Of a stretch of DNA of 25,296 bases, positions 1 to 24,936 are shown one piece after another; the first letter of the stretch is position 1, and each line of letters begins with the position of its first letter. This DNA is from a virus: positions 1 through 25,296 of IMG/VR virus record IMGVR_UViG_3300034190_002397; one strand, written 5' to 3'. The notes beneath the pieces are model-generated. The model saw only the letters and a program-made list of their open reading frames with translations, was not told the DNA's origin and ran no database searches. A program made the position numbers and the translations under genes.

Positions 1-273
1 GGCGGAGGTGGTCCTTATGCCGGTCGATCTAATGGATCAGGAACTTGGATTGGCGGTGGCCCATACGGAGGAGGAAATTCTAGCAAAATGCCAGATGGTG
101 CATTTTCACCTGCTAGTGTTTTTGGAGATGCAGGTTTAGTTAATAGAGGTGGAGGCGGAGGCGCCGGCGCATCTGGATTAAACAATCCTAATGCAAGTAC
201 AGGAGGTGGCGCTGGCGGATCAGGCGTTATAATTTTAAAAATTACTTCATCTACTGGTTATTTCATAAATTAA
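1..273 (+). CDS. Glycine-rich tail-fibre-type protein, C-terminal end (5' truncated by window)
   Basis: The frame is open from base 1 to the TAA at 271-273, so this is the last 90 residues of a longer protein that begins outside the window. The visible part is dominated by Gly with Ala, Ser and Asn, in runs such as GGGGGAGASG and GGGAGGSG. It ends in a short hydrophobic beta-strand (GVIILKI) and a few polar residues. Glycine-rich stretches closed by a G-V-I/V-I-hydrophobic strand are common at the tips of phage tail fibres and adhesins, where they can carry host-range variability. The place just ahead of the neck and tail genes fits a virion fibre or structural protein. An internal ATG at 88 is not a convincing start because coding character continues upstream of it. 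The exact fibre type cannot be told from this fragment. Confidence 0.7.
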   Translation, partial: GGGGPYAGRSNGSGTWIGGGPYGGGNSSKMPDGAFSPASVFGDAGLVNRGGGGGAGASGLNNPNASTGGGAGGSGVIILKITSSTGYFIN

Positions 274-282
274 AATTAAAAA

Positions 283-316
283 CTCCTGTTTATACTAAAT
301 AGAAGAAAAACAGGAG
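283..316 (+). promoter_or_regulatory. Inverted repeat sequestering the ribosome-binding site, with late-promoter motif in its loop
   Basis: CTCCTGTTT at 283-291 is the exact reverse complement of AAACAGGAG at 308-316, giving a 9-bp perfect stem with a 16-base loop. The 3' arm contains the Shine-Dalgarno sequence (AGGAG, 312-316) of the gene starting at 323. The loop holds ACTAAATA (294-301), which matches the late-promoter motif seen elsewhere in this window. Read-through RNA from upstream would fold and hide the ribosome site. RNA begun at the loop promoter (about base 307) would lack the 5' arm and leave it free. T4 is known to use this arrangement for some late genes, such as the lysozyme gene e. 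Its operation here is inference. Confidence 0.65.
294..301 (+). promoter_or_regulatory. Late promoter motif ACTAAATA
   Basis: The octamer resembles the T4 late consensus TATAAATA, and the same ACTAAATA occurs at 5608 and 9904 ahead of other late genes. It lies 22 bases upstream of the ATC start at 323. By T4 spacing, transcription would start near 307 and would serve the 112-residue protein and gp13-gp17 downstream. Confidence 0.6.
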
Positions 317-322
317 AACGAC

Positions 323-661
323 ATCGCTGCTTATACTGAGCTCTTTCTAGAGCAATACGCAAATTTTTCAAATACCATACACGCAAAAGATAATTCAGGT
401 GCAAATATAAACCTGTTTGGCTATCTTGCAAACTCTCAGATTAGAAAATCCCAGTTTTCTGCTACGGCTAATGATTTTGTTGCAACGATTACCAGTAACG
501 GAACTGGTCAGATAACACTTACTATGACCGCAGCAAATACTGGAAACCTTACAGCTGGACGATATATGTATGATGTTCTTATTCATAAAACAGCAACGGG
601 TGAAAAAACAAGAGTAGTTGAAGGTATAGTTAATATATTACCAGGTGTTACAAGGACATAA
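323..661 (+). CDS. Small beta-rich virion-type protein with apparent ATC start codon
   Basis: The frame is open from a stop at 296-298 to TAA at 659-661. It contains no ATG, GTG or TTG codon before the late ATG near 524. ATC at 323 lies six bases after a good Shine-Dalgarno (AGGAG, 312-316), and from it the protein would read M-AAYTELFLEQYANFSNTI. I recognise this as the N-terminus typical of a small conserved structural protein in marine T4-like phages. The rest (NLFGYLANSQIRKS, then GQITLTMTAANTGNLTAGRYMYDV, here split across positions about 34-47 and 65-88) has the alternating pattern of an Ig-like or BppU-N-like beta-sandwich. No enzymatic motif is present. The function is probably a structural or fibre-associated part of the virion, inferred from fold and location next to gp13. 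A G-to-C base error at 325 is the main alternative to a true ATC start. Confidence 0.7.
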   Translation: MAAYTELFLEQYANFSNTIHAKDNSGANINLFGYLANSQIRKSQFSATANDFVATITSNGTGQITLTMTAANTGNLTAGRYMYDVLIHKTATGEKTRVVEGIVNILPGVTRT

Positions 662-664
662 AAG

Positions 665-1672
665 ATGCCAACATATACTAGAGGAAGAACAGGACAACCA
701 TCAACTAGACAACAATTCAAAGAGTATTGTTTAAGAAGATTAGGTTTTCCAGTAATCGAAATTAATGTAGATGACGATCAGTTAGAAGATCGTGTTGATG
801 ATGCTTTAGATTTTTTTCATGACTATCATTTTGATGGTGTTGAAAAAGTATTCATGAAACATCAAATCACTCAAGCTGATATTGATCGTAAATGGATATA
901 TGCACCATCGGCTGTTATATTTGTAACAGGTGTTTTTCCTTTTGATGATTCTAATGCTTCCATCAATATGTTTGATTTAAGATACCAGTTAAGATTACAT
1001 GACTTGTATGACTTTACATCTGTTTCTTATGTGTCTTATGAAATTACAATGCAACATATACAAACATTAAATATGTTGTTTTCAGGTAAACCACAATTCA
1101 GATTCAATCGTCACATGAATAAATTGATGTTAGATATATCTTGGGACGCTGATATACAAGTAGGTGAATATGTTGTGATAGAATGTTATCGTCAACTAAG
1201 ACCTGATACAGTTGATGTAACTGGTCTTGCAACCGCTGAAACATTTGTAGATACCGTATCAAACACACTTACAGGTTTTGGTACCACATTTGATCAAGAA
1301 TTAATTGAAAATGATTTTATTACAGTTGCAAATACAGTTCAAGGTGTAAGTGAAGAATTACAAATTTCAAAAATAAATTCACCAACATCTATCACTTTAG
1401 TCAATGCACCAACAGCTAATGTTACAAATGGCTCTATGACAGTTGCAGGTTCTTCAGATGTTTGGAACGATAGATTTTTGAAAAGGTACGCAACAGCTCT
1501 AATCAAATACCAATGGGGTTCTAACCTTTCTAAATTTGCAGGCATACAAATGCCAGGAGGTGTTACTCTTGATGGGCCTAGAATACAAGAAGAAGCGAAA
1601 GCTGAAATAGATAAACTAGAAGAGGAGATGCAAATCTACAATGTAGCACCTAATGAAATTTATATGGGTTAA
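665..1672 (+). CDS. 13: Neck protein gp13
   Basis: This 335-residue protein matches T4 gp13, which joins the portal and the completed tail at the neck of the virion. The N-terminal stretch around 15-60 (QQFKEYCLRRLGFPVIEINV, then DDQLEDRVDDAL and FFHDYHFDGVEK) is the clearest family signature. A second conserved stretch is the run ending VIECYRQLRP near residue 180. Residues about 187-263 form a beta-type insertion (TLTGFGTTF..ELIENDFITV...SITLV) before the conserved WNDRFLKRYATALIKYQWG region at 267-285. The C-terminus is a helical, acidic stretch. The start at 665 has AAGGA upstream and follows the previous gene by three bases. T4 gp13 is about 309 residues, so this one is slightly longer, consistent with the insertion. 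Confidence 0.93.
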   Translation: MPTYTRGRTGQPSTRQQFKEYCLRRLGFPVIEINVDDDQLEDRVDDALDFFHDYHFDGVEKVFMKHQITQADIDRKWIYAPSAVIFVTGVFPFDDSNASINMFDLRYQLRLHDLYDFTSVSYVSYEITMQHIQTLNMLFSGKPQFRFNRHMNKLMLDISWDADIQVGEYVVIECYRQLRPDTVDVTGLATAETFVDTVSNTLTGFGTTFDQELIENDFITVANTVQGVSEELQISKINSPTSITLVNAPTANVTNGSMTVAGSSDVWNDRFLKRYATALIKYQWGSNLSKFAGIQMPGGVTLDGPRIQEEAKAEIDKLEEEMQIYNVAPNEIYMG

Positions 1673-5607: not shown

Positions 5608-5615
5608 ACTAAATA
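5608..5615 (+). promoter_or_regulatory. Late promoter motif ACTAAATA upstream of gp18
   Basis: ACTAAATA lies in the 65-base gap between gp17 and gp18, one of the few real intergenic gaps here. Spacing to the gp18 ATG (5669) leaves a leader of about 48 bases with a strong Shine-Dalgarno (AGAGGAG, 5655-5662 region). It is identical to the motifs at 294 and 9904. Sheath protein is needed in high amounts late, which fits a dedicated promoter. Confidence 0.6.
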
Positions 5616-5668: not shown

Positions 5669-7636
5669 ATGGCATTTCAGCTATCACCAGGAGTAAACGT
5701 ATCTGAGATTGATCTCACTACAATTGTTCCTTCAGTTGCCACTTCCATTGGCGCTACCGCTGGACAGTTTGCTTGGGGACCTGCAAATGAGGTTTTTACT
5801 ATATCGAATGAAGTAATATTGCAGGAAAGATTTGGAAACCCTGATGATGGAAACTACGAATACTGGTTTTCAGCGGCAAACTTCTTAGCATATGGAAATA
5901 ATTTAAAAGTTGTAAGAGCAGTAAGTAAAGATTATGCGACAGGCTCACTAAATGCTGCTGCAAATGTCGGTGGTGCAATACTTATAGAGAATGATGATGA
6001 CTATGATTTAAATCATAGTTCAGGAAATACGAGTGTAGGTCCTTTTGCAGCTAAATGGGCAGGTGCAAGAGGTAATTCATTAAGAATCTCTATTTGCCCA
6101 AGTACAAACGCATTTTCACAAAATATATCACAATCACCTGCAAGTTTTTCTGTTACTGCAAACGCAATGAATTATCTTGTAGATAATACACAAGTAATCA
6201 ATGTTAAAAAAGTAGATGCAAACGGATATATTACAGGAACGCCTACAGGACCTAAAGTAATAGTAGGTGATAAAGTTTCAGTAGATGGTGGCACAACTTA
6301 TAAAGATGTTGTAGCCGCAAATGCTACTTCCATAACAGTTGCATCTGCTCAAGCATTTGCAGCTAATATTGCAAACAACACAGCTGTTCTTCGTAAATGG
6401 CAATATGCTGACGATTTCAAGATCGCACCAGGAACTTCAGACTATGCAAATGGTAGAAATGCTACAGGTGATGAATTACACGTTGCAGTTCTTGATGAAG
6501 ATGCAGAGTTTACAGGTACAGCAAATACATTTTTAGAAAAGTTTGTAGCTGTTTCTAAGGCTACTGATGCTCTTAATTCAGAAGGTGCATCAAATTTCTA
6601 TAAGAATGTGGTTAACGATCAATCTGAATATGTTTGGTGGCAAGCACATCAAAATGGTGGTACCAATTGGGGTACAACCACTACTGCTACATCAACATTT
6701 ACAAATATAGATACACCTTTTAGTGCATCAATGGTACAAGGTGCTAATGGCGCTGTTTCAACCGCTAATGTTGTAACTGCTTTCGGTGAATTTACAGATC
6801 CAGCCGCAGTTGACATTAATTTAATTGTAACAGGTCCAGCAGTTTCTACTGTTAGTGCTTATGCAATAGATAATATTGCATTAACTCGTAAAGATTGTAT
6901 GGTATTCTTATCACCTGAAAGAGCAGATGCTTTAAATAACGCTGGTAGTGAAGCTACTGATATAATTGCATATCGTAACTCACTCACATCAACATCATTT
7001 GCCTTTATGGATTCTGGATACAAATATCAGTATGACAAATACAATGATGTATTCAGATATGTGCCATTAAACGGTGATATGGCGGGTCTATGTGTAAGAA
7101 CAGACTTAGAGAGAGATCCATTTTTCTCACCTGCTGGTTTGAATCGTGGTATTATCAAAAATGTAGTTAAACTTGGTTATAACCCATCAAAAGCGGATAG
7201 AGATGATCTTTACAGTAACGGTGTTAACCCTGTGGTTACATTCCAAGGCGAAGGTACAGTATTGTTTGGAGATAAAACAATGCAATCTAAGCCTTCAGCG
7301 TTTGATAGAATTAATGTTCGTAGATTGTTTATCTTGTTAGAAAAGGCAATATCAAGAGCTGCAAGATTCTCACTCTTTGAATTTAACGATCAATTCACAC
7401 GTTCACAATTTGTTGCTCTTGTAGAACCATTCTTGAGAGATATACAAGGGCGCCGTGGCATAACAGACTTCAGAGTTGTTTGTGATGAATCAAATAATAC
7501 TGGTGAAGTCATAGATCGTAACGAGTTTGTAGGTGATATTTACATTAAACCTGCAAGGTCTATTAACTTTATACAACTCAATTTCGTTGCAGTAAGAACG
7601 GGAGTTTCATTTGACGAGATTGTAGGACGCTTCTAA
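5669..7636 (+). CDS. 18: Tail sheath protein gp18
   Basis: This 655-residue protein is the contractile sheath subunit (T4 gp18, 659 residues). It stacks as hexameric rings around the tail tube and contracts on infection. The N-terminus FQLSPGVNVSEIDLTTIVP (3-21) is the classic sheath opening, which donates a strand to the neighbouring subunit, followed by GATAGQFAWGPANE. The C-terminal 130 residues are the most conserved part: RINVRRLFILLEKAISRAAR, the FVALVEPFLRDIQGRRG segment and the final F-D-E-I-V-G-R-F. The middle (about 150-420) is Ala/Thr/Asn-rich and variable, as expected for the surface-exposed domains. The start is supported by AGAGGAG just upstream. It is followed by a 26-base gap to gp19 with another late motif overlapping its stop. 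Confidence 0.96.
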   Translation: MAFQLSPGVNVSEIDLTTIVPSVATSIGATAGQFAWGPANEVFTISNEVILQERFGNPDDGNYEYWFSAANFLAYGNNLKVVRAVSKDYATGSLNAAANVGGAILIENDDDYDLNHSSGNTSVGPFAAKWAGARGNSLRISICPSTNAFSQNISQSPASFSVTANAMNYLVDNTQVINVKKVDANGYITGTPTGPKVIVGDKVSVDGGTTYKDVVAANATSITVASAQAFAANIANNTAVLRKWQYADDFKIAPGTSDYANGRNATGDELHVAVLDEDAEFTGTANTFLEKFVAVSKATDALNSEGASNFYKNVVNDQSEYVWWQAHQNGGTNWGTTTTATSTFTNIDTPFSASMVQGANGAVSTANVVTAFGEFTDPAAVDINLIVTGPAVSTVSAYAIDNIALTRKDCMVFLSPERADALNNAGSEATDIIAYRNSLTSTSFAFMDSGYKYQYDKYNDVFRYVPLNGDMAGLCVRTDLERDPFFSPAGLNRGIIKNVVKLGYNPSKADRDDLYSNGVNPVVTFQGEGTVLFGDKTMQSKPSAFDRINVRRLFILLEKAISRAARFSLFEFNDQFTRSQFVALVEPFLRDIQGRRGITDFRVVCDESNNTGEVIDRNEFVGDIYIKPARSINFIQLNFVAVRTGVSFDEIVGRF

Positions 7637-7639
7637 ATA
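7632..7639 (+). promoter_or_regulatory. Late promoter motif TCTAAATA upstream of gp19
   Basis: TCTAAATA overlaps the gp18 stop codon. By T4 spacing RNA would begin near 7645, just ahead of ACAGGAG (7648-7654), giving a very short leader for gp19 (ATG at 7663). It may raise tube protein output independently of gp18 read-through. The overlap with a stop codon followed by AAATA could be chance in AT-rich DNA. Confidence 0.45.
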
Positions 7640-8248: not shown

Positions 8249-9919
8249 ATGGCGATAAAATTATTTGGATTTACTCTAGGCAGAAAAGATCAAGCAAAAG
8301 AGCAACCTTCTGAACAGGCCTCTTTTGCTTTACCTAATGAAGCAATGGACGATGGTGCTGTTACAGTACAGAACAATGCTTATTACGGTACATATGTAGA
8401 CTTAGAGGGTTCTGTTCGCAATGAATTAGAACTAATTACACGATACCGTGAGATGGCAAATCACCCTGAGTTAGATGCAGCTATTGATGATATAGTCAAT
8501 GAGTCTATAACACATGATATTGATGGTAAATCAGTAGATATTAATGTTGATAACTTAAAACAACCTGAAACCATTAAGAAAAGAATCATGGAGGAGTTTA
8601 ACAATATAAAACATATGTTAAACTATGGTAACTTGGCTGATGATTTGTTTAAGAGATGGTATATAGATGGTAGATTATACTTTCATATTGTAGTTAATGA
8701 TAAAAAACCAAAAGAGGGTATCAAAGAATTAAGATATATTGACCCTAGAAAAATAAGAAAAGTCCGTGAAATAAAGAAAGACCGTGATCCTAAAACCGGT
8801 GCAATGGTTATCAAATCAATCGGTGAATATTATGTCTACAATGATAAGGGTACAACAACACAAACATATACAGCAAATATGAATAGTGGTTTGCGTATAG
8901 CTACAGATTCAATCATATACTGTACATCAGGTATGATGGATGCAAGAAATACATTTGTTATTTCTTATTTACATAAGGCGATTAAACCTTTAAATAATTT
9001 AAGAATGATAGAAGATGCGATTGTAATATATCGTATATCAAGGGCACCAGAGAGAAGAATATTTTACATTGATGTAGGTAACTTACCAAAAGGTAAAGCA
9101 GAACAATACTTGCGTGATGTAATGATTAAGTATCGTAACAAAATGGTTTATGATGCTTCAACTGGTGAGCTTAGAGATGATCGTAAACATAAGTCAATGT
9201 TAGAGGACTTTTGGTTACCTCGTAGAGAAGGTGGTAAAGGAACAGAGATTACAACACTACCAGCTGGCCAAAATTTAGGTGAGTTGGAAGATGTTAAGTA
9301 TTTTCAAAAGAAACTTTTACAATCACTAAACGTACCTATTTCACGTTTAGAACCACAACAAGGTGGTATGATTGGTTTAGGTAGAGTTTCAGAAGTTACA
9401 AGAGATGAAGTTAAGTTTAATAAATTCATTATAAGACTACGCAATAAATTTGCACAAACTTTTGACCATGCTTTAAGGGTACAATTATCACTTAAAGGTA
9501 TAATGAGTACAGAAGAGTGGGATATTGCAAGAGAAGATATTTACTATGACTTTAAGAAAGATAATAACTTTTCTGAAATGCGAGAAGCAGAGCTTCTTCG
9601 TGAAAGACTTAACTTATTAGGTACAGTTGATCCATATATTGGTCGTTATTATTCAACAGAGTGGGTAAAGAAAAATGTTTTACAATTATCTGATGAAGAA
9701 ATAATGAAGATGGATAAACAAATGAAAAAAGAAGGTGCTATTATTCAGCAACCTGAAGTAGATCAAGATGGGATCCAGGCACAATCACCACAACCACCAA
9801 ACGGGTCTGGCCCATCACCCAACAATGCAGATAATTTAGATACAGCTAGAGGTTTGAATACTGAAGGTATATTACAGTTTATAAAAGAATCTGATAGAGC
9901 CGTACTAAATAGAAAATGA
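8249..9919 (+). CDS. 20: Portal vertex protein gp20
   Basis: This 556-residue protein is the T4-type portal (gp20, 524 residues in T4). It is the dodecameric channel at the special vertex through which gp17 packages DNA and to which gp13/gp14 bind. Family signatures include NAYYGTYVDLEGSVRNELEL (42-61), the REMANHPELDAAIDDIVNES segment (67-86), IRKVREIKKDRDPKTG, and LEDFWLPRREGGKGTEITTL with the LQSLNVPISRLEPQ segment. The last 60 residues are Gln/Pro/Asn-rich and disordered-looking. AGGATGG before ATG supplies the ribosome site. A late-promoter motif for the next gene lies inside its final codons. Confidence 0.96.
   Translation: MAIKLFGFTLGRKDQAKEQPSEQASFALPNEAMDDGAVTVQNNAYYGTYVDLEGSVRNELELITRYREMANHPELDAAIDDIVNESITHDIDGKSVDINVDNLKQPETIKKRIMEEFNNIKHMLNYGNLADDLFKRWYIDGRLYFHIVVNDKKPKEGIKELRYIDPRKIRKVREIKKDRDPKTGAMVIKSIGEYYVYNDKGTTTQTYTANMNSGLRIATDSIIYCTSGMMDARNTFVISYLHKAIKPLNNLRMIEDAIVIYRISRAPERRIFYIDVGNLPKGKAEQYLRDVMIKYRNKMVYDASTGELRDDRKHKSMLEDFWLPRREGGKGTEITTLPAGQNLGELEDVKYFQKKLLQSLNVPISRLEPQQGGMIGLGRVSEVTRDEVKFNKFIIRLRNKFAQTFDHALRVQLSLKGIMSTEEWDIAREDIYYDFKKDNNFSEMREAELLRERLNLLGTVDPYIGRYYSTEWVKKNVLQLSDEEIMKMDKQMKKEGAIIQQPEVDQDGIQAQSPQPPNGSGPSPNNADNLDTARGLNTEGILQFIKESDRAVLNRK
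9904..9911 (+). promoter_or_regulatory. Late promoter motif ACTAAATA upstream of gp67
   Basis: ACTAAATA lies within the last codons of gp20, 39 bases ahead of the gp67 ATG. Initiation would fall at the gp20 stop, leaving a leader with TAGGAGAT at 9938-9945. It would drive the prohead core and protease genes. T4 gp67 is a high-copy core protein, which fits a promoter of its own. Confidence 0.55.
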
Positions 9920-12314: not shown

Positions 12315-12322
12315 TATAAATA
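12315..12322 (+). promoter_or_regulatory. Late promoter TATAAATA upstream of gp22-gp23
   Basis: This is an exact match to the T4 late consensus TATAAATA in the 41-base gap after gp21. Initiation near 12328 would leave a leader of about 25 bases with AAAGGAGAT before the gp22 ATG at 12353. It also excludes the in-frame TTG at 12323 as the true start of gp22. It probably drives both scaffold and major capsid genes, ending at the terminator at 14811. Confidence 0.75.
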
Positions 12323-14792: not shown

Positions 14793-14810
14793 TCATTTGC
14801 TTTACTTTAA

Positions 14811-14838
14811 AAGAGGAACTTCGGTTCCTCTTTTTTTT
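14811..14838 (+). terminator. Intrinsic terminator after gp23
   Basis: AAGAGGAAC (14811-14819), a TTCG tetraloop (14820-14823) and GTTCCTCTT (14824-14832) form a perfect 9-bp stem closed by C-G on UUCG, an exceptionally stable loop. It runs into an eight-base T tract (14831-14838). AA/TT can extend the stem by two pairs. This is the best terminator in the window and ends the gp22-gp23 transcript. UUCG terminators are a known habit of T4-like phages. Confidence 0.92.
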
Positions 14839-14858
14839 GGCTTCCGCTTTTTAACTTA

Positions 14859-14866
14859 TATAAATA
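14859..14866 (+). promoter_or_regulatory. Late promoter TATAAATA four bases before a start codon
   Basis: This perfect TATAAATA lies after the gp23 terminator. It ends only four bases before the ATG at 14871, so initiation by T4 rules would fall on or next to that A. The mRNA would then be leaderless or would lose the start codon. No in-frame ATG, GTG or TTG lies in the next 24 codons to rescue translation. Confidence 0.55.
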
Positions 14867-14870
14867 GAAG

Positions 14871-15407
14871 ATGGCAGGCATAACAGATAAAAACCCTAGT
14901 AATCCTAATTTTTTACACCCGAATAAATTTATATTTTCGTTTGCGAGAGCACCGAATTTACAATATTTTTGTCAATCGGCAACTGTACCTGGATTATCAA
15001 TTGGTGAAGCTATGTTTAATACACCATTTGTAGATTTGTTTTCACCTGGTGATAAACCAATGTATGATTTATTAAACGTAACATTTTTAATTGATGAAGA
15101 TTTGAAAAGTTGGTTAGAGATTCATGATTGGCTTCGTGCCATGTCATTTCCTGAAGGTTATGCTGATTATAAAAATATGAGTAAATTAAATAAATTTGCC
15201 GGAAATCAACCAAAGTTTCCACAATTTCATGATGCTTCACTTACGTTATTTTCATCATCAAATAATCCTAAATTTAGATTTAAATTTAAAGATGCCTTCC
15301 CTACCACACTTTCTACGTTTGTAATTAACTCAGCAGATTCTCCTGATGAGATACTTACAGCTGATGCTACATTCAGATTTGCCTATTATGATATTGAAAA
15401 GTTGTAA
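14871..15407 (+). CDS. Tail-tube-fold protein, probable tail completion protein gp3
   Basis: This 178-residue protein has the motif order of a contractile-tail tube protein: NKFIFSFARAPNLQYFCQSA (18-37), VPGLSIGEAMFNTPFVDL (39-56), GDKPMYDLLNVTFLIDEDLK (60-79) and WLEIHDWLRAM (81-91), ending F-R-F-A-YYDI. gp19 in this window follows the same plan (IPGASLG, then TVINDEDF and an ERW helix). In marine T4-like phages the slot between gp23 and uvsY is usually filled by the tail completion/tube terminator gene 3. That is my best name for it, but the fold alone would also suit a tube initiator such as gp54 or gp48. The only upstream ribosome signal is a weak AGAAG touching the ATG. A TATAAATA promoter sits immediately before it. 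Confidence 0.8.
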   Translation: MAGITDKNPSNPNFLHPNKFIFSFARAPNLQYFCQSATVPGLSIGEAMFNTPFVDLFSPGDKPMYDLLNVTFLIDEDLKSWLEIHDWLRAMSFPEGYADYKNMSKLNKFAGNQPKFPQFHDASLTLFSSSNNPKFRFKFKDAFPTTLSTFVINSADSPDEILTADATFRFAYYDIEKL

Positions 15408-17354: not shown

Positions 17355-17757
17355 AGAAATCAAAATAATAAGATTAAAGTCCGGAGAAGATGTAATAGCC
17401 ACTTTCACAGAAAATAAAAAAGAGAAGAGAGTGACTTTAGAAAATCCAATGCACATAATTTTCAAAAGATCACCCACATCTGAAGGCATAACTCCAATGA
17501 TGTATATGTATCCTTGGGTACCAGTAGAAATGGTAGAGAAAGACATAGCGTTTATAGATTCTGTAAATGTTTTAACTACATTTCAACCAAAAGGTGAGAT
17601 GATAGAATATTATGAAAACGTAATCATTGATGCAAAAGAAAGAGCTAAAAAATTAGGTGATCAAAAAGTTTTTGAAGAAGATATTGAATATGATGATGAT
17701 ATAGATGAAATTAAAGAAGCTTTGAGAGAAAGAAAAACAAAAAAAATGGTGCATTAA
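17344..17757 (+). CDS. Sm-like (LSm-type) small protein, putative
   Basis: This 137-residue protein begins with a segment that reads like the first half of an Sm fold: IKIIRLKSGEDVIATFTENK (6-25), then KRVTLENPMHIIF (28-40). It is followed by MYMYPWVPVEMVEKDIAFID (53-72) and a second strand pair, VNVLTTFQPKGEMIEYY (75-91). Small proteins with this K-I-x-R-L-x-S-G-E-D-V pattern recur in marine phages. A hexameric RNA-binding ring is possible by analogy with Hfq, but no RNA-binding residues can be assigned. The C-terminal 50 residues are acidic then basic (EEDIEYDDDIDEIKEALRER, 111-130) and look helical or disordered. It overlaps uvsW by 11 bases and touches the next gene through TAATG, so it is co-translated with both. 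Confidence 0.6.
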   Translation: MENKEIKIIRLKSGEDVIATFTENKKEKRVTLENPMHIIFKRSPTSEGITPMMYMYPWVPVEMVEKDIAFIDSVNVLTTFQPKGEMIEYYENVIIDAKERAKKLGDQKVFEEDIEYDDDIDEIKEALRERKTKKMVH

Positions 17758-18425
17758 TGGATTATAAAGATGTGATTGTAAAAAAACCTTGGGGTCAAGA
17801 ATACCTTTGTTATCATAACAAAGAAATTGCCATTTGGTTTTTACATATAAAAAAAGGAGAAAAAACTTCCTTGCATTGTCACCCAAATAAAAATACTGGC
17901 TTTGTTGTTCTTAAAGGGCAAACAAAGTTGTCATTTATAAGAGGTGGTGTTGACATATATGGTTTAAATAAAATTAATATATTTCGTTCAAGGTTTCATT
18001 CTACATATGCTGTAACAGATTCTTTTATATTTGAGATTGAAACTCCTGAAGATAAAGAAGATTTAGTAAGATTAGAAGATTCTTATGGTAGAGAGGGTGA
18101 AAAGTATGAAAGCTCTAGTCATCATTTACCTAAAAATGATTCTTGTGTGTGGCTAGATGAAGCTTCATTAAGTCCTAAACACTTAGATGTGTGTGGTTGT
18201 TGCATACAACACATGGAAATAATTGATAAAAAAGAGTTACTAAATAAGAAAGAAGAAGAAATATTTGTCATAACAAATGGTGGTTTAGTCACAGATGAGA
18301 ATGGTAAAAGACAAAAAATATTATGGCCAGGTGATGTTATTGATGGTGAAACATTACATAGACTAGCTACTGCATTTAAATTGGATTATAACACAACTGT
18401 ATTACATATAATAAAAAATGTTTGA
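17757..18425 (+). CDS. Bicupin protein, sugar-isomerase-like
   Basis: This 222-residue protein holds two cupin domains. The first begins KKPWGQEYLCYHNKEIAIWF (9-28), the same layout as phosphomannose-isomerase/ManC-type cupins. It then has GEKTSLHCHPNK, in which H40 and H42 are metal ligands, VVLKG as the turn, and H81 as the distal ligand. The second copy (about 165-215) reads EEIFVITNGGLVTDENGK, then WPGDVIDGETLHRLATAF. A CGCC cluster (146-149) between the two might bind metal. Enzymes of this shape isomerise or epimerise sugar phosphates or act as sugar-binding sensors. The exact reaction is not decidable from sequence alone. The gene opens the accessory block; it overlaps the Sm-like gene by one base and the nuclease gene by eight. 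Confidence 0.72.
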   Translation: MDYKDVIVKKPWGQEYLCYHNKEIAIWFLHIKKGEKTSLHCHPNKNTGFVVLKGQTKLSFIRGGVDIYGLNKINIFRSRFHSTYAVTDSFIFEIETPEDKEDLVRLEDSYGREGEKYESSSHHLPKNDSCVWLDEASLSPKHLDVCGCCIQHMEIIDKKELLNKKEEEIFVITNGGLVTDENGKRQKILWPGDVIDGETLHRLATAFKLDYNTTVLHIIKNV

Positions 18426-18900
18426 ATATAACTGTAAAATTATAAAAGTAGTAGATGGCGACACAGTAGATGTTGACATTGATTTAGGATTCGGTCTTTG
18501 GATTCATAATGAACGAATACGAATGTATGGTATAGACACGCCTGAATCTAGAACTAGAGATTTAGTAGAAAAAAAATATGGGATATTTGCAAAAGAATTT
18601 GTAGAGGCACACTTACCTTTAAATAGTATTACAACATTAAGAACAAAAAAAGATAAAGTAGGTAAGTTTGGTCGTGTTTTAGGTGAATTTGTATTGAGAG
18701 AGCCAACTTCTGATTTAACGGGACTTATTAAAATAGAAACGCTCAATCAGTTGATGATTCATTTTAAAATTGGTGTTGCATATCATGGCCAAGCTAAAGA
18801 ATTAATAGAACACGAACATAGAAAAAATAGAGATTTAGTTGACTTGACTTGTTTAGATAATATGAATTGGCCTGTGAAAAAAGATGATACATTTATTTGA
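18418..18900 (+). CDS. Thermonuclease-family (staphylococcal nuclease-like) nuclease
   Basis: This 160-residue protein has the complete SNase catalytic set: KVVDGDTVDVDIDL (10-23), RIRMYGIDTPESR (33-45) and KDKVGKFGRVLGE (78-90). The residues equivalent to Arg35, Asp40, Thr41, Glu43 and Arg87 of the staphylococcal enzyme appear as R35, D40, T41, E43 and R86. No signal peptide is visible, so it would act in the host cytoplasm, perhaps in degrading host nucleic acid or trimming DNA during replication. Small cytoplasmic SNase proteins of this type are common in marine T4-like phages. It overlaps the cupin gene at its 5' end and the HAD gene by 17 bases at its 3' end, so it is embedded in the accessory operon although its role is not metabolic. 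Confidence 0.88.
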   Translation: MFEYNCKIIKVVDGDTVDVDIDLGFGLWIHNERIRMYGIDTPESRTRDLVEKKYGIFAKEFVEAHLPLNSITTLRTKKDKVGKFGRVLGEFVLREPTSDLTGLIKIETLNQLMIHFKIGVAYHGQAKELIEHEHRKNRDLVDLTCLDNMNWPVKKDDTFI

Positions 18901-19378
18901 TTTAGATAAAACATTATGGGATTGCCAAAATAAATACGAAAAAGAAATATGGGCTAAACAATTAGTACCACCTTTCAAATTTGCCACCCATTATTCAGAA
19001 AATATTGTTATTGATGATGTTCTCTCTCGTTGCGAGTTGAGAGAAGGTGTTAAAGATTATTTTAAAAAAATATCAATACCAGAAAATAAAATAGGATTTT
19101 TATCTGTGGGTGCATATCATGGTATGGAAATGGAAAGACAACCTAGTGTTAAATTATTACAAAAGTTCAACATTTACGAATATTTTACACACACTAAAGT
19201 TCTACAATACAAAACTTTTGACAAAAAAGAAATTTTAGAATTAGTTAAAAAAGAGTCTGATGGTGAAGAAATTGTGTTTTATGATGATGATGAAAAAAAT
19301 TTAGATAAAGCTAAGAGTTTAGGTATTAAAGCTGTTGACTCTTTAAATATAAAAAATTGGAATTTGTATGTCGGTTGA
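18884..19378 (+). CDS. HAD-superfamily phosphatase (MDP-1/HAD-IIIC-like)
   Basis: This 164-residue protein carries HAD motif I FDLDKTLWDC (5-14; nucleophile D6, acid/base D8), a serine motif II at GFLSVG (S74), a lysine near residues 114-115 and motif IV FYDDDEKNLDKAKSLG (132-147). The DxDxTLW form is typical of the HAD-IIIC group, which includes magnesium-dependent phosphatase-1 and some sugar or acyl-phosphate phosphatases. The lack of a large cap domain suggests an accessible active site for a sizeable or flexible substrate. Being next to a heptose-type kinase and sugar-isomerase-like cupin, it may remove phosphate from a sugar phosphate, as GmhB does in heptose synthesis. This is inference. 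It overlaps the nuclease gene by 17 bases and the radical SAM gene by 11. Confidence 0.78.
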   Translation: MIHLFDLDKTLWDCQNKYEKEIWAKQLVPPFKFATHYSENIVIDDVLSRCELREGVKDYFKKISIPENKIGFLSVGAYHGMEMERQPSVKLLQKFNIYEYFTHTKVLQYKTFDKKEILELVKKESDGEEIVFYDDDEKNLDKAKSLGIKAVDSLNIKNWNLYVG

Positions 19379-20879
19379 TATTCTTTTTGTACACCCTAAT
19401 GCCTCTGAAAAAATTTACCAAGGATTATCATCTAGAAATTCTGCCATAGAACCACCTATTTGGGCTGCTATGTTGGCCAAAAGTGTTCTATCATTAGGAT
19501 ACAGAGCTGAATTAATTGATGCTGAAGTTGAAGGTTTAAGTTATACAGAAACAGCTAAAAGAATTTTTGTATATAAACCTAGAATAGTATGTTTTGTAGT
19601 TTATGGCCAACAACCTAGTGCATCATCTCAGAACATGGAAGGTGCTACAAAAGTATCCGAAATATTTAAACTACTTGAACCCGAAAGTTTTGTATTATAT
19701 GTTGGTGGTCATGTTTCAGCTTTACCTGTTGAAACATTAGAGAAGCATAGTGAGATTGATGCAGTATGTCAGAATGAAGGTGTATATACAATAAATCAAC
19801 TAATACAATCTAATTTATCTCACGAACAATTGAGGAATGTAGAAGGTCTGGTTTATAAAGTAGACAATCAAATTATAGTAAACAAACCATCACCAGTTGT
19901 ACCTAAAAAACATTTAGAACGTGATTTACCTGGAATGGCATGGGAGTTATTACCAAATTTAAAAAATTATAGAACAGCTGGTTGGCACTCTTGGTCAAAT
20001 AATACAGAGAAACAACCTTTTGCAGCTTTATATACAAGTCTTGGCTGCCCCTATAAATGTTCTTTCTGTATGATAAACATTATTAACAGAACAAAACCTG
20101 GACCTGAAATAACAAGTGAAGATAGTAATATATTTCGTTGGTGGTCACCAGAGTTTATCATAAAACAATTCGACCATATTGCAGAACAAGGTGTAAAGAA
20201 TGTAAAGATTGCTGATGAATTATTTGTTTTAAATCCTAACCACTTTATAAAAATATGTGATTTAATAATTGAAAGAGGTTATGATTTTAATATTTGGGCA
20301 TACTCAAGAGTTGATACTTGTAAACCACAATACTTAGAGAAATTAAAACAAGCCGGTGTAAATTGGCTTGGACTTGGTATAGAAAATCCTAACAATGTAT
20401 TAAGACAAGAAATACACAAAGGTGGATTTAAAGATGTGAAAGTTTTAGATTTGATTAATACAGTTCGTGATGCTGGTATAAATGTGGGTGGTAATTACAT
20501 ATTTGGTTTACCTTATGATACACATGAAACAATGCAAGATACTTTAGATTTTGCATTAGAAAATCCAACAGAAATGGCCAATTTTTATTCTGCTATGGCC
20601 TATCCAGGAAGTCCACTACATAAGGAAGCTAGAAAAAATAAAATTATTTTACCAGAAACATATGCAGGTTATAGCCAACACTCATACGAAACACAAAACT
20701 TATCAAATGATTATTTAAAGGCATCAGAAATTTTAGAGTTTAGAGATTATGCTTGGGATACTTACCACTCACATCCAAAATATTTAAGTCTAATGCAACA
20801 TAAGTTTGGTAAAAAAGCTGTAGATGAATTAGATAGTACAAAGAAAGTTAAATTGAAAAGAAAATTATTAGGAGATTGA
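19368..20879 (+). CDS. Cobalamin-binding-domain radical SAM enzyme
   Basis: This 503-residue protein joins an N-terminal B12-binding-type domain (about 1-150: DILFVHPNA, EPPIWAAMLAKSVLSLGYRA, VGGHVSALP) to a radical SAM TIM barrel. The barrel has the CxxxCxxC cluster motif CPYKCSFC (C227, C231, C234), ADELFV and LGLGIENPNNVLRQEIHKGG. A C-terminal helical tail follows (FRDYAWDTYHSHPKYLSLMQ). This is the architecture of class B radical SAM methylases and of related enzymes that rearrange carbon skeletons. The N-terminal domain lacks a clear DxHxxG B12-ligand motif, as in many members of the family. Such a gene is uncommon in phages. Its start is internal to the HAD gene by 11 bases and its end is one base from the next gene. 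The substrate is unknown. Confidence 0.88.
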   Translation: MSVDILFVHPNASEKIYQGLSSRNSAIEPPIWAAMLAKSVLSLGYRAELIDAEVEGLSYTETAKRIFVYKPRIVCFVVYGQQPSASSQNMEGATKVSEIFKLLEPESFVLYVGGHVSALPVETLEKHSEIDAVCQNEGVYTINQLIQSNLSHEQLRNVEGLVYKVDNQIIVNKPSPVVPKKHLERDLPGMAWELLPNLKNYRTAGWHSWSNNTEKQPFAALYTSLGCPYKCSFCMINIINRTKPGPEITSEDSNIFRWWSPEFIIKQFDHIAEQGVKNVKIADELFVLNPNHFIKICDLIIERGYDFNIWAYSRVDTCKPQYLEKLKQAGVNWLGLGIENPNNVLRQEIHKGGFKDVKVLDLINTVRDAGINVGGNYIFGLPYDTHETMQDTLDFALENPTEMANFYSAMAYPGSPLHKEARKNKIILPETYAGYSQHSYETQNLSNDYLKASEILEFRDYAWDTYHSHPKYLSLMQHKFGKKAVDELDSTKKVKLKRKLLGD

Positions 20880-20880
20880 T

Positions 20881-21414
20881 ATGAATTTGATGAAAGCATT
20901 AATTATAACATGGGAAAACTTTCAAGACCAGGAAGTTGTTTATCCTTATTACAGGCTAAAAGAAGAAACTGATGATGTAAAAATTATATCTAATGTAACA
21001 GGTAGATTTCATGGCATCATGGGTGTAAATATGACCTCTCATGATACGTTAGATAATTTAACAAATTATTCTAATTATGATTTTTTAGTTTTACCTGGAG
21101 GTGTTAAGTCATTAGAAAAACTAAGACAAGAAAAAGATGTCTTAGAGTTTATTCGCCAATGGGATGTAGATGGTAAATTGATAGCTTCAACTTGTCATGG
21201 CGCTCAGTTGATGATATCCGCTAAAATTACAGAAGGTAGAAAAATAAGTGGTTATTATAGTATTAAAGATGATATAAACAATTCTGGTGCAATATATGTT
21301 GATGCACCTTCTGTTAGTGATGGTAATATTGTATCTTCACCACACTACGATCATATGGGTGCTTGGATGAAAGAGGCAATTACATTATATTATGCAAACG
21401 CTGAACGAGGATAA
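20881..21414 (+). CDS. DJ-1/PfpI-family protein
   Basis: This 177-residue protein has the flavodoxin-like DJ-1/PfpI fold: MKALIITWENFQDQEVVYPY (4-23) with the conserved Glu at 18, YDFLVLPGG (66-74), and the nucleophile elbow ASTCHGAQLM (102-111; C105, H106). The C-terminal region SDGNIVSSPHYDHMGAWMKE closes the fold. Family members include proteases/deglycases (PfpI, YajL), hydratases and glyoxalase-III-type enzymes acting on reactive aldehydes and ketones. Such a function would suit a pathway producing reactive sugar intermediates from the neighbouring TPP enzyme. The call to the family is firm, the biochemical role is not. The start at 20881 follows AGGAG six bases away. It overlaps the E1 alpha gene by 23 bases, so the two are coupled. 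Confidence 0.88.
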   Translation: MNLMKALIITWENFQDQEVVYPYYRLKEETDDVKIISNVTGRFHGIMGVNMTSHDTLDNLTNYSNYDFLVLPGGVKSLEKLRQEKDVLEFIRQWDVDGKLIASTCHGAQLMISAKITEGRKISGYYSIKDDINNSGAIYVDAPSVSDGNIVSSPHYDHMGAWMKEAITLYYANAERG

Positions 21415-22267
21415 ACTCCTTAGAATACATATTAAGGCATCATATTGTAGGGCGTTTGAAGAAGAAGTTTTTGACCTTGTACAAAAAAAGATAATTAAAA
21501 TACCAGTTTATCTTTCCGCTGGGCAAGAATATATATCAGCAACTTTATCTCAATTATTACTTGATGTTGATAAACAGATATTCATACAACACAGAGGTCA
21601 TTCAACCTATCTAAATTTTGGTCGTATGGAACATAATTATAATGAACCAGGTTTAGATCCTATTTACGAGCTTCATATGAAATATTTGGCTCTAGAATTA
21701 TTGGGTGATAAAAAAGGTTGTGCAAATGGTATGGGTGGTTCTGCCTCAATACAATCAAAGAAAAATAACATATATGGTCATGATGGTCTTATGGGTTCTC
21801 ATGGCCCTATTGCCACAGGTGCCTGTTATGGTAATAAAAAATTCACTCTTTGTTTTATTGGTGATGCAGCTGCTGAAGAAGATTATTTTTTAGGTGCTTT
21901 AGGTTGGGCATCAACAAAAAAATTACCAATATGGTTTATCGTTGAAGATAATAATCTCTCTATTCTTACCGAGAAAAAAGTTAGAAGAAACTGGGAGATG
22001 AATGATGTTGCAAAAGCTTTCAAAATGAAATCACATAGTTGTACTGATGATCCAAAAGATTTAGCTCTTCGTTTCTATAAAACTTCAATTGAAGAGCCTG
22101 CATTGTTTAATGTAAAAACTAATCGTTTATTTTGGCACGCTGGTGCAGGTATAGATGACCCTGATACACCAGACTTACATAAAAAATACATCAAATATTT
22201 TGGACCTAAATACAGTAAAGAAGCAAAAGATTATGTGAAAGAACTGTGGAAAAAATGGTTAACGTAA
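21392..22267 (+). CDS. Thiamine-diphosphate-dependent dehydrogenase/transketolase-like E1 alpha subunit
   Basis: This 291-residue protein resembles the E1 alpha chain of 2-oxoacid and acetoin dehydrogenases, which bind thiamine diphosphate. Ordered motifs are HRGHSTYL (67-74), GCANGMGGSAS (109-119, equivalent to the GKGGSMH region), GSHGPIATGACYG (135-147) and the TPP-binding GDAAAEED (157-164), ending at N188 in EDNN. The usual second glycine of GDG is replaced by Ala. It is about 30-80 residues shorter than typical bacterial E1 alpha, mainly at the N-terminus and in the C-terminal phosphorylation-loop region. It is paired with an E1 beta gene that overlaps it by 13 bases. No E2 or E3 gene is here, so a stand-alone acyloin/decarboxylase or transketolase-like reaction is more plausible than a dehydrogenase complex. 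Confidence 0.87.
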   Translation: MQTLNEDKLLRIHIKASYCRAFEEEVFDLVQKKIIKIPVYLSAGQEYISATLSQLLLDVDKQIFIQHRGHSTYLNFGRMEHNYNEPGLDPIYELHMKYLALELLGDKKGCANGMGGSASIQSKKNNIYGHDGLMGSHGPIATGACYGNKKFTLCFIGDAAAEEDYFLGALGWASTKKLPIWFIVEDNNLSILTEKKVRRNWEMNDVAKAFKMKSHSCTDDPKDLALRFYKTSIEEPALFNVKTNRLFWHAGAGIDDPDTPDLHKKYIKYFGPKYSKEAKDYVKELWKKWLT

Positions 22268-23166
22268 AAGATACAATAAAAGACGTTGTTCGTTATCATC
22301 TAAAAGAAAAAAATGGTTTGGCTTTAGGTCAATGTTTAACTGCTGTAGGTTGGGTTGGTGGAACTTTGCCAGAATTATATGAAGAAGATGGTATGGTTGA
22401 ACTTTCTATGGCTGATGTTGCAGGTGGTGGCATAGCAGTTGGTATGGCTCTAGCAAATCGTAGACCAATGTATGTAATACGCTATCAAGGTTTTAATTGG
22501 TACAATGCACCAAGCATTATAAATTATGCAGCTAAATCAAAGGAGATATGGGATGTATCATGCCCAATATTTGTTCGCTCCATTGCAATGGAAGGTGGGA
22601 TTGGTCCTGTAGCAGGATCATCTCACCACTCCTTGTATTATAGAATGCCTGGAATAAAAATATATTCACCAATGACACCTAATGAATATAAAGAAGTTTA
22701 TAAAAATTTTATGAATGAAGATGAAGTTTATTATGTTTCAGAACACCGAGGTTCTTACAATAATACTGAAGAGTTACCAGATATAATTCAAAAAGATGCT
22801 AAAGTCACTTTATTTCCTATTTCTATAACAAGATTTGCAGCTGTTGAAGCCGCAAAAGAATTAGAAAAAGAAGGCACAAAAGTTAATATAATACACATCA
22901 ATCAAATAAAACCTTTTAAAATAAAAAAAGAATATGTGAACTTTATTACAAATGGATTAGTCATAGATGATGATTATGTTGATGGTATTGCTAAAGCTAT
23001 ATCATACGACATACAAAAAATTACAAATAAAAAAATAGATGTTTTAGGTCTTGAAAATAAAACTGCTGGTTTTTATAAACAAGTAGATAATCTACCACCT
23101 ACAAAAGAAAAAATTATTGGTAAAATAAAAAAACTGTTAGAGGATAATTATAATGATAATAACTAA
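22255..23166 (+). CDS. Thiamine-diphosphate-dependent E1 beta subunit (transketolase-like)
   Basis: This 303-residue protein is the partner of the upstream E1 alpha. After the N-terminal ALGQC and GGTLPELYEEDGMVELSMAD strand comes the typical AGGGIAVGMALANRRPMYVI glycine-rich helix. It is followed by RYQGFNWYNAPSIINYAAKS, GPVAGSSHHSLYYRMPG, and a C-terminal transketolase-C-like domain (KVTLFPISITRFAAVEAAKE). The conserved TPP-activating Glu of the family (in PISE-x-G) seems replaced by Asp in SMADVAGG (D54 by this start). I chose ATG 22255 over GTG 22246, nine bases upstream in frame, because both lack a strong ribosome site and ATG is the commoner codon. The pair should assemble as an alpha2-beta2 heterotetramer with TPP at the subunit interfaces. 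The substrate is unknown. Confidence 0.87.
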   Translation: MVNVKDTIKDVVRYHLKEKNGLALGQCLTAVGWVGGTLPELYEEDGMVELSMADVAGGGIAVGMALANRRPMYVIRYQGFNWYNAPSIINYAAKSKEIWDVSCPIFVRSIAMEGGIGPVAGSSHHSLYYRMPGIKIYSPMTPNEYKEVYKNFMNEDEVYYVSEHRGSYNNTEELPDIIQKDAKVTLFPISITRFAAVEAAKELEKEGTKVNIIHINQIKPFKIKKEYVNFITNGLVIDDDYVDGIAKAISYDIQKITNKKIDVLGLENKTAGFYKQVDNLPPTKEKIIGKIKKLLEDNYNDNN

Positions 23167-24127
23167 AACACCTTATAGACTTTCATTGTTCGGTGGTGGC
23201 ACAGATTATTCTGATTGGTATAGTTTTAATAAATCAAGAATTATGTCAGCTGCAATAAATCATCATTGTTTTTTGAGTGTAAAAGATTTACCTCCTTATT
23301 TCAGTTATAAGTATAGAGTGTCCTATTCAAGATTGGAAGCAGTAAATTCAATTGACGATATAGATCACCCATCTGTAAGAAATTGTTTAAAACATTTAGG
23401 CATGGAACAAAGTTTAACAATTACACATGATGGTGAAATGCCGGCAAAATCTGGTGTAGGTTCTAGCTCTGCTTTTACTGTTGGTTTATTAAATGCTTTA
23501 TTTCATAAAAAAGGCTTTAATCTTACACCAAGAGATTTAGCTGAAAAAGCAATTCATGTTGAACAAGTATTGAATCATGAGAGTGTTGGTATTCAAGATC
23601 AAATTACAGCTGCGTATGGTGGTATGAATATAATTACAGCTGGCTTAGGTAAAGAATGGGAAGTAGAACCAGTTAAAATATCAGATGAATATTTGAAAGA
23701 ATTGGAAAGTCACATACTTTTAGGATTTTCAGGTAAGAGTAGAATTGCAGAAGTACAGGCAAGAAAACAAGTAGAAAGAATTGGTAAAAATAAAAATTAT
23801 TTAAATGAAATTGCAAGTGTAGCCGATATGGGTATAAATTATATTTTGAAAGAAGATGGTATAGAAAAAGTAGCTAGTCTTTTAACAGCCACTTGGCAAT
23901 TTAAAAAACATTTAACAGATAATTTGACGAATCAAAAACTAGATTATATATTTGATCTATCGGAAAAAAATGGATCATTAGGTGGAAAATTAATGGGTGC
24001 TGGAGGTGGTGGATTTTTTATGTTTGTTGTACCTCCAGAGAAACAAGAAAAATTTAAAAAAGCACTCAACCACATAAAAGTTTGGGTGCCTTTCAGACTT
24101 AGTAAAGGAGGAAGTGAAGTCATATGA
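23153..24127 (+). CDS. GHMP kinase, D-glycero-D-manno-heptose-7-phosphate kinase-like (HddA-like)
   Basis: This 324-residue GHMP kinase begins MIITKTPYRLSLFGGGTDYS (1-20), the signature N-terminus of the HddA/GmhB-pathway heptose kinases. It has the ATP-binding loop PAKSGVGSSSAFTVGLLNAL (97-116), HVEQVLNHESVGIQDQI (135-151), and C-terminal motif 3 GGKLMGAGGGGFFMFVVP (277-294). These match D-glycero-alpha-D-manno-heptose-7-phosphate kinases, which phosphorylate the anomeric position before nucleotidyl transfer to give GDP- or ADP-heptose type precursors. Related kinases act on other sugars such as L-fucose, so the substrate is probable rather than proven. SD AGAGGATAATTATA precedes the ATG, and the 5' end overlaps E1 beta by 14 bases. 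It would supply an activated sugar phosphate in the accessory pathway. Confidence 0.85.
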   Translation: MIITKTPYRLSLFGGGTDYSDWYSFNKSRIMSAAINHHCFLSVKDLPPYFSYKYRVSYSRLEAVNSIDDIDHPSVRNCLKHLGMEQSLTITHDGEMPAKSGVGSSSAFTVGLLNALFHKKGFNLTPRDLAEKAIHVEQVLNHESVGIQDQITAAYGGMNIITAGLGKEWEVEPVKISDEYLKELESHILLGFSGKSRIAEVQARKQVERIGKNKNYLNEIASVADMGINYILKEDGIEKVASLLTATWQFKKHLTDNLTNQKLDYIFDLSEKNGSLGGKLMGAGGGGFFMFVVPPEKQEKFKKALNHIKVWVPFRLSKGGSEVI

Positions 24128-24306
24128 CCGAACAAAAACAATACAGCGAAGTTTTGTTACAAGAAGCAAAAAGAATCAGAGAGTTCATTAGGCTTAATGA
24201 ATCAGAAATAGGCGCCACTCATTTAAAAATAACAGCAAACATATTAGAAGTAAGAGCTAAACAGCTTTTAAATAACTTATCTTCAAACGGAACACCGCTA
24301 TCATAA
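24124..24306 (+). CDS. Small hypothetical protein with strong ribosome-binding site
   Basis: This 60-residue protein overlaps the kinase gene by ATGA. AAAGGAGG at 24104-24111 lies 12 bases ahead, the strongest Shine-Dalgarno sequence of the accessory block, which argues that the gene is real. The sequence is helical and charged: LLQEAKRIREFIRLNESEIG (11-30), then HLKITANILEVRAKQLLNNL (33-52). A short tail follows. It has no membrane segment and no motif I recognise. It might be an adaptor or small regulatory protein. The spacing of the ribosome site is longer than usual, so efficiency is uncertain. Confidence 0.6.
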   Translation: MTEQKQYSEVLLQEAKRIREFIRLNESEIGATHLKITANILEVRAKQLLNNLSSNGTPLS

Positions 24307-24309
24307 CAG

Positions 24310-24328
24310 TTTGTCAACCCTTTGTCAA
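24310..24328 (+). repeat. Direct repeat TTTGTCAA x2 ahead of the oxygenase gene
   Basis: TTTGTCAA occurs at 24310-24317 and again at 24321-24328, spaced by CCC (period 11), in the 30-base gap before the oxygenase start. The period equals about one helical turn, which would suit two bound protein copies on the same face. It overlaps the region of the ribosome site. Confidence 0.4.
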
Positions 24329-24336
24329 GGAATATT

Positions 24337-24936
24337 ATGCAGAATTACCAAGAAACTTTTGAAAAAAAAGGATATGTTTTAGTAAAAGAATTTATACCTA
24401 AAACAGTAGCTACATACTTATTTGAATACTTAAAATTTTCAAGTCATGCTTTGCTTTTGTCAGGAAAGGCAGTTGTTGGAGATAAGCAAGTTCCAAATTC
24501 TTTTGCACCAAGACATGGTGATATGGCCTTTCAGGCATTAATGAAACATATGCGACCTACAATGGAGATTATTACCGGGTTGGACTTGTGTCCTACTTAC
24601 ACTTATGTTAGACTATATCGTGAAGGTAGTATTTTAAAGAAGCATAAAGATAGACCTTCATGTGAAATATCAGTAACAGTAAAACTATCGGATACAAAAA
24701 AAAATGACTACAATTGGCCCATTTATATGGATGGTACTGAATGTATTTTAGAAGATGGTGATGCAGTAATTTATCGAGGTTGTGATTATGAACATTGGCG
24801 TGAACCTTGCGAAGGTGGTGAAAATTATCGTTTAGGGCAGGTGTTTTTACATTATATTGATAAAAATGGTCCTCATTATCCTGAATACGCTTATGATCAA
24901 AAACCATATACCAAATTATTTGAAAGTGAATTATGA
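24337..24936 (+). CDS. 2-oxoglutarate/Fe(II)-dependent dioxygenase
   Basis: This 199-residue protein has a double-stranded beta-helix oxygenase core with the HxD...H metal set: H103 and D105 in LKKHKDRPSCEI, and H153 in YEHWREP. A basic residue for 2-oxoglutarate is R165 in NYRLGQVFLHY. The N-terminal domain (YQETFEKKGYVLVKEFIPKT, 4-23) is the usual lead-in of phytanoyl/prolyl-hydroxylase-like phage oxygenases. Such small oxygenases are frequent in marine T4-like phages, with substrates (protein, nucleobase or small molecule) mostly unknown. I take ATG 24337, with AAGG six bases upstream, rather than the TTG at 24322. It overlaps gp55 by ATGA, so it is probably transcribed with the sigma factor. 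Confidence 0.83.
   Translation: MQNYQETFEKKGYVLVKEFIPKTVATYLFEYLKFSSHALLLSGKAVVGDKQVPNSFAPRHGDMAFQALMKHMRPTMEIITGLDLCPTYTYVRLYREGSILKKHKDRPSCEISVTVKLSDTKKNDYNWPIYMDGTECILEDGDAVIYRGCDYEHWREPCEGGENYRLGQVFLHYIDKNGPHYPEYAYDQKPYTKLFESEL

Follow-up and report, generated by a model that had tools for sequence, protein, structure and literature searches.

Why should the late promoter of a T4-like phage lie in the loop of a hairpin whose 3' arm contains the ribosome binding site of the next gene? The question is raised by positions 283-316 of a 25.3-kb virus record from an uncultured T4-like phage, analysed over its full 25,296 nt (the window). Pelagibacter phage HTVC008M, Methylophilales phage Melnitz and Synechococcus phages are among the nearest annotated relatives of this phage. 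The arms of a 9-bp perfect inverted repeat (283-291/308-316), CTCCTGTTT (283-291) and AAACAGGAG (308-316), enclose the loop ATACTAAATAGAAGAA (292-307), within which ACTAAATA is found at 294-301. The Shine-Dalgarno sequence (SD) AGGAG (312-316) lies inside the 3' arm, six bases 5' of an ATC codon at 323. Perfect arms, promoter-bearing loop and SD in the 3' arm were thus all found as the initial annotation had described them. The features of this region are:

1-273, plus strand: 3'-terminal part of the glycine-rich, fibre-like gene that lies upstream, the presumed source of read-through; its open frame stops 21 nt before the promoter box
283-291, plus strand: 5' arm CTCCTGTTT, complementary to the SD arm and present only in read-through RNA (sequence, fold, compensatory changes)
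295-301, plus strand: late promoter box CTAAATA in the loop (Aeh1-type late promoter)
307, plus strand: predicted late transcript start (CTAAATA begins at -12)
308-316, plus strand: 3' arm AAACAGGAG with the SD AGGAG at 312-316 (sequence and fold)
323-661, plus strand: 112-residue collar- or fibre-adaptor-like protein with an ATC start (homologues, PHROG, Pfam, fold model)
665-1672, plus strand: gp13-like head-tail adaptor, 3 nt past the stop of the 112-residue gene (phrog_211, E 4e-43)

The 50-nt hairpin segment has a predicted folding energy of -10.6 kcal/mol (z = -3.9), and none of 200 dinucleotide shuffles was equally stable. The window has 9 perfect 9-mer pairs with a loop of 3-30 nt, where 60 shuffles average 7.2; with at least four G/C required in the arm, the numbers are 4 and 0.6. 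The bare inverted repeat is therefore modestly unusual and by itself weak evidence; the case rests on the relatives. No Rfam family matched the window. A terminator reading for the minus strand was rejected: the T-run past the hairpin on that strand is present in the window clade but absent in two relatives (L010 and L011). Elsewhere, at 14809-14841, a perfect 11-bp hairpin followed by a T-run lies between the gene ending at 14792 and the gene at 14871, and is probably an intrinsic terminator.

In the T4-like phage Aeh1, the late promoter motif is CTAAATA and begins at -12 (PMC1524935), while the corresponding boxes are NATAAATA in S-PM2 and TATAAATA in T4 (PMC2984593). Because the Aeh1 rule sets the start of CTAAATA at -12, the RNA is predicted to start at 307, past the 5' arm (which ends at 291) and before the 3' arm (from 308). 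The annotated initiation at about 307 agrees, as a predicted start, with this published geometry. A host sigma-70 promoter in the loop was considered and discarded, no sigma-70-like site being listed at 283-316. Of the 11 [AC]TAAATA boxes on the plus strand of the window, 7 are followed by a gene start after 9-65 nt (binomial p = 2e-6), and the sheath gene and further structural genes are among those so preceded; the boxes are no more numerous than chance would give, but their placement does exceed chance. The box scan also gave:

5609-5615, plus strand: late box upstream of the tail sheath gene, without a visible SD hairpin
7633-7639, plus strand: late box before the gene at 7663
9905-9911, plus strand: late box before the gene at 9950
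12316-12322, plus strand: late box ATAAATA before the gene at about 12359

From its position, we take the gene at 7663 to be tube-like. One ATAAATA box (14860-14871 region) lies 5 nt before the ATG at 14871; the -12 rule puts its RNA start inside that ATG, which leaves three possibilities: a wrong start, a leaderless RNA read from a later codon, or a box that is not used. Compared with other CTAAATA promoters, most homologue promoters of the 112-residue gene have an extended core, TTGACTAAATAG: the frequencies of the T, T, G and A that precede the box are 0.91, 0.81, 0.82 and 0.96 (n=93 homologues) versus 0.17, 0.29, 0.17 and 0.67 (n=24 others). In the 169.8-kb record to which L414 belongs, this 12-mer is present a single time; it might be an operator or an extended promoter. 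The window core (290-309) deviates, with ATA replacing the TTG. These promoters resemble Aeh1 late promoters in their CTAAATA box at -12 and differ from them, in most homologues, by the longer core (PMC1524935).

The initial annotation had placed a gene at 323. A gene does begin there, but not with ATG, GTG or TTG: ATC is the likely start, because no in-frame ATG, GTG or TTG follows the TAA at 296 and because the start codons of homologues align with it (TTG, GTG, ATC, ATT or ATG). The ATC start also explains why the gene is absent from the list of open reading frames. The protein matches phrog_3304 ('L-shaped tail fiber protein assembly', E 3e-21), and 6 of 9 members, the window protein itself not among them, matched Pfam LtfC (E up to 1, best 3.6e-6). 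For its AlphaFold2 model (pLDDT 91.7), the closest Foldseek matches were 8hqz_T (E 4e-8, TMq 0.71) and chains of 7qg9, that is, baseplate/tail-tip chains of DT57C and T5; we take the matched chains to be the collar protein. In sequence and fold the 112-residue protein is thus similar to the T5 LtfC-like collar/fibre-attachment class, and with a modelled fold like that of T5-type collar/baseplate proteins it may well be a collar or fibre-adaptor protein. Starts other than ATG (TTG, GTG, ATC, ATT, ATA) were found in 78 of the 94 CTAAATA-clade homologues, which would be a reason why gene callers miss the gene. ATG is used by only 16 of these 94, versus 44/49 gp14 homologues, 37/37 for the 332-aa gene and 14/14 for the sheath gene. 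Weak starts together with a hidden SD suggest that output must stay low or separate from that of the neighbours.

These elements would form a cis-acting RNA switch that makes translation of the 112-residue protein depend on the gene's own promoter. A transcript entering from the fibre gene upstream has both arms and, judging from folding and covariation, would form the 9-bp hairpin over the SD, so that ribosomes could not start. Phage late polymerase acting at the CTAAATA in the loop would instead, by the Aeh1 rule, yield RNA from about 307 that lacks the 5' arm and has a freer SD. Low-efficiency start codons (ATC here) would add tight dosage control.

For the window, the predicted probability of an open SD was 0.004 when the RNA reads through and 0.32 for the late RNA. 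The first value fits the silent read-through transcript of the initial annotation; for the late transcript, which it had called active, the SD is freer, but at 0.32 not fully open by prediction. The mean for 30 hairpin genes was 0.03 in read-through and 0.51 in late RNA, compared with 0.46 and 0.55 for 118 other late genes. A gain of at least 0.5 was predicted for 12/30 hairpin genes, 7/61 other CTAAATA-clade genes, 6/34 ATAAATA homologues and 9/118 other late genes. In the Melnitz isolates (L001 and L004), predicted hiding is weak (0.26 read-through, 0.55 late).

We then compared the hairpin among relatives; all counts of loci refer to the matches listed, not to the whole collection. In close relatives (98-99% protein identity) the hairpin is identical. 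At 59-64% identity, CTCCCG/CGGGAG replaces CTCCTG/CAGGAG in L010 and L011, and L012 has a stem with one mismatch, while further lineages carry CTCCCA/TGGGAG (L018) or AATTCCCC/GGGGAATT (L029). The covariation that the initial annotation had proposed to look for is thus present, in the form of a stem kept in close relatives and of compensatory changes. Twenty-two hairpins, a set picked for having the stem, show several pair types at variable positions in an SD-anchored register; pairs were counted in this register, and a MAFFT alignment of the hairpins, which misplaced the 3' arm, was left out. In a fairer pairing test, sequences had only to carry CTCC eight bases upstream of the box and GGAG downstream of it. 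The first position inside this clamp pairs in 13/13 distinct homologue sequences (C-G 8, T-A 4, T-G 1; Fisher p = 0.007) and the second in 11/13. A pattern scan for CTCC...ACTAAATA...GGAG gave mostly chance matches among the matches listed.

Other stems and their absence delimit the distribution. Four loci with an ATAAATA box (L060-L062 and L089) have a different stem, ACACA...TCCTT/AAGGAGACTGTGT, which by prediction also hides the SD; the fold of L060 is unexceptional in stability (z = -1.7). Eight phage records (L326-L333) have ATG starts and showed no such stem by eye, and no cultured phage with a CTAAATA-type hairpin was found among the matches listed. Loss of the stem beside a retained promoter, which the initial annotation had held to count against a switch, is found among more distant relatives, with 64 of the 94 CTAAATA genes being without a hairpin label.

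Is the hairpin a property of late promoters in general? With shuffled 5' flanks as the null, an SD-containing stem across the box was found at p <= 0.01 in 27/104 homologue promoters and in 0/87 other late promoters of the same contigs, and at p <= 0.05 in 30/104 and 1/87, loci that are not independent of each other. An earlier null, in which arms were swapped between relatives, was contaminated by shared arms and gave p = 0.055 for the window stem. A larger set comprised 162 distinct homologues, entries that agreed both in protein and in their 70 upstream bases having been dropped; here, at p <= 0.02, the hairpin occurred in 25/94 CTAAATA genes and 4/55 ATAAATA genes, the other 13 having no box. 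Among these late promoters, the SD-hiding hairpin is specific to the 112-residue gene. On the protein tree the hairpin label changes 6 times, 4 of the changes being forced by supported branches, on a tree of 110 columns of a small protein with many open forks and 93/94 rows (L294, with a very long branch, was omitted). The tree was built on the small protein alone because a gp13 match is adjacent in only 15/94 loci.

These results also bear on the simplest objection, a chance inverted repeat around a promoter. Perfect 9-mer repeats are indeed nearly as common in shuffles, as described above, and many relatives have no stem. However, the difference between homologue and other late promoters, the compensatory changes and the recurrence on the tree make a coincidence scarcely credible.

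In 46 of the 64 CTAAATA genes without a hairpin label, an intrinsic terminator is found upstream instead. With the hairpin label relaxed for this comparison (p <= 0.06, at least 3 SD-run bases in the arm), the 94 CTAAATA genes comprised 26 with the hairpin only, 4 with both, 46 with an upstream terminator only and 18 with neither (p = 1e-7). Taking the majority per 80% protein-identity cluster, the numbers in the same order were 9, 1, 17 and 6 of 33 (p = 0.0015). Both labels are clustered on the tree, where only 4 independent pairs occur, which is not significant. A label-free comparison gave the same direction: the SD of terminator-free genes was predicted to be less open in read-through RNA, 0.26 (n=41) versus 0.42 (n=50; p = 0.004), with p = 0.13 when 13 and 15 clusters were compared. 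Hairpins thus appear, from these sequence comparisons, to exchange with ordinary terminators.

One pair of contigs displays such an exchange directly at the sequence level. The coding DNA of L392 and L394 is 99.4% identical, and upstream they are identical for 30 bases and then at 8 of the next ten. On the far, upstream side of the promoter they part: a terminator is found in L392 and an anti-SD arm in L394, and the stem predicted for that arm extends over the GTG start too. In read-through RNA, predicted SD openness is 0.62 for L392, of which only about 100 bases of upstream sequence are known, and 0.0002 for L394; in promoter RNA it is 0.80 in both. Alternation with terminators might also mean that the hairpin mainly caps or protects the 3' end of a processed fibre RNA in a terminator-like manner, since the two elements rarely occur together and either would provide a 3' hairpin. 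Yet a cap could sit anywhere upstream, whereas the stem always spans the promoter and takes the SD into its 3' arm, together with the start codon in L394. We consider a function as cap improbable.

The best-known hairpins of this type are those of T4. In the genes e, soc, 49 and I-TevI, the SD lies in the 3' strand of an RNA helix found only in longer upstream transcripts (PMC3014915). For gene e, a late promoter in the region encoding the 5' strand gives a late RNA without the helix, and a 100-fold effect of the hairpin was measured (PMC3014915). Similarly, hairpins of the homing endonuclease genes I-TevI, I-TevII, I-TevIII, segB and Aeh1 mobE hide the ribosome binding site in read-through RNA and free it in late RNA (PMC2988022). 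The analogy to T4 gene e drawn in the initial annotation is borne out for the helix, the position of the SD and the placement of the late promoter (PMC3014915): the SD is paired in read-through RNA according to predicted openness (0.004) and covariation, and the promoter is placed such that RNA from the predicted start at 307 lacks the 5' strand.

Does the hairpin then also serve timing, silencing early or middle read-through so that the protein is made only late? The anatomy matches that of T4 e, soc and I-TevI, and these T4 genes are reported to be part of early and middle transcripts (PMC3014915, PMC2988022). In the phages studied here, however, a late-type box precedes a co-directional upstream gene in 10 of the 12 hairpin contexts whose upstream sequence extends over 2.5 kb or more, and these upstream genes are fibre-like or accessory. 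In L015, which of the relatives with upstream sequence is the nearest, a block of fibre-like genes in the same direction precedes the hairpin, and the tandem ATAAATA boxes before this block lie about 4 kb away; its counterparts of the upstream fibre-like gene match Gly_rich_2 and phrog_2295. Because late-type boxes precede the upstream co-directional genes, read-through across the hairpin is probably late too. The gene is thus not seen embedded in early or middle transcripts as T4 e is, which speaks against the early-versus-late separation of the initial annotation, and we regard a timing switch as unlikely. The separation from fibre-gene read-through that it had also proposed fits insulation of the 112-residue gene.

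Insulation is the likely purpose because the upstream genes are themselves late-type. The hairpin would keep late read-through from being translated, a task for which sister phages have an intrinsic terminator, and would not serve to delay expression from early to late. A cis-acting RNA switch that insulates the 112-residue gene from late read-through is, on the sequence evidence, probably the best explanation of the locus.

The border upstream of the hairpin is variable. Between window positions 1-282 and L005, the upstream fibre gene differs beside near-identical downstream regions. Between L006 and L005, identity runs out some 60-70 nt ahead of the start, leaving the hairpin on the side of the downstream gene, which marks a module border. 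Promoter-early stem-loops (PeSLs) of T4-type phages likewise combine a promoter and a stem-loop at a module border (PMC4503421) and are called promoter-terminator composites in one title cited there. Since PeSLs are discussed for T4-like phages (PMC4503421) and the upstream module switches between close relatives at this boundary, the hairpin could be a mobile promoter/stem-loop cassette for upstream-module recombination, with no role in translation. PeSLs, however, have early promoters (PMC4503421), while the promoter here is of the late type and lies inside an SD-hiding stem. Furthermore, stem sequences vary by lineage with pairing kept, which sequence-based recombination would not need, and other late promoters of the same contigs have no stem. 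A recombination cassette is thus very improbable. Returning to insulation, we tentatively suggest, at somewhat less than even confidence, a late-over-late translational insulator: in one T4-like clade, the boundary before a collar-type gene would have to be sealed against an exchangeable upstream cassette, by a terminator or by an anti-SD arm in alternation, and the hairpin would have arisen several times with different stems, once between contigs with otherwise near-identical genes.

The mechanism itself is already known from T4 e, soc, 49 and I-TevI; the gene, the phage group, late insulation and the apparent interchange with terminators seem to be new. In contrast to T4 e, the gene described here would encode a collar/fibre-adaptor-like virion protein and starts with a non-AUG codon, its box is CTAAATA rather than TATAAATA, its hairpin alternates with terminators and upstream transcription is probably late, for which reason we do not file it under the timing type. 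Homing endonuclease genes invade early/middle operons, whereas the 112-residue gene is a structural gene in a late region (PMC2988022). A review (PMC3014915) counts syn9, S-PM2 and P-SSM phages among those lacking gene e and does not report such a switch in them, and our search, which most subscription journals lay outside, listed no earlier report of one in phages like the present one. If our interpretation is correct, switches of the T4 lysozyme type would not be peculiar to lysis and homing genes; environmental T4-like phages would use them recurrently to free a virion gene from its upstream cassette. The interpretation would also provide a testable equivalence of translational and transcriptional insulation, and a sequence rule by which such switches could be recognised: anti-SD arm, late box, SD.

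Three further observations were made. On the minus strand of L263, which encodes a distant homologue of the 112-residue gene, the palindrome AGATTAGTTAGGAGCTAATCT directly follows a CTAAATA box near position 9909 of that strand, with the SD in the loop and not in the stem. In the window, the structural genes are followed at 17757-24936 by a metabolic-looking cassette of frames that we presume to be cupin-like, radical-SAM-like, dehydrogenase E1-like, sugar kinase-like and oxygenase-like. Finally, L153, a 22.8-kb record in which Gp23 was not found, has a promoter-in-loop hairpin at a different gene (1095-1144, around TTGACTAAATAG; 115 aa, no PHROG), with about 16 uninterrupted pairs that take in both SD and ATG (z = -5.7).
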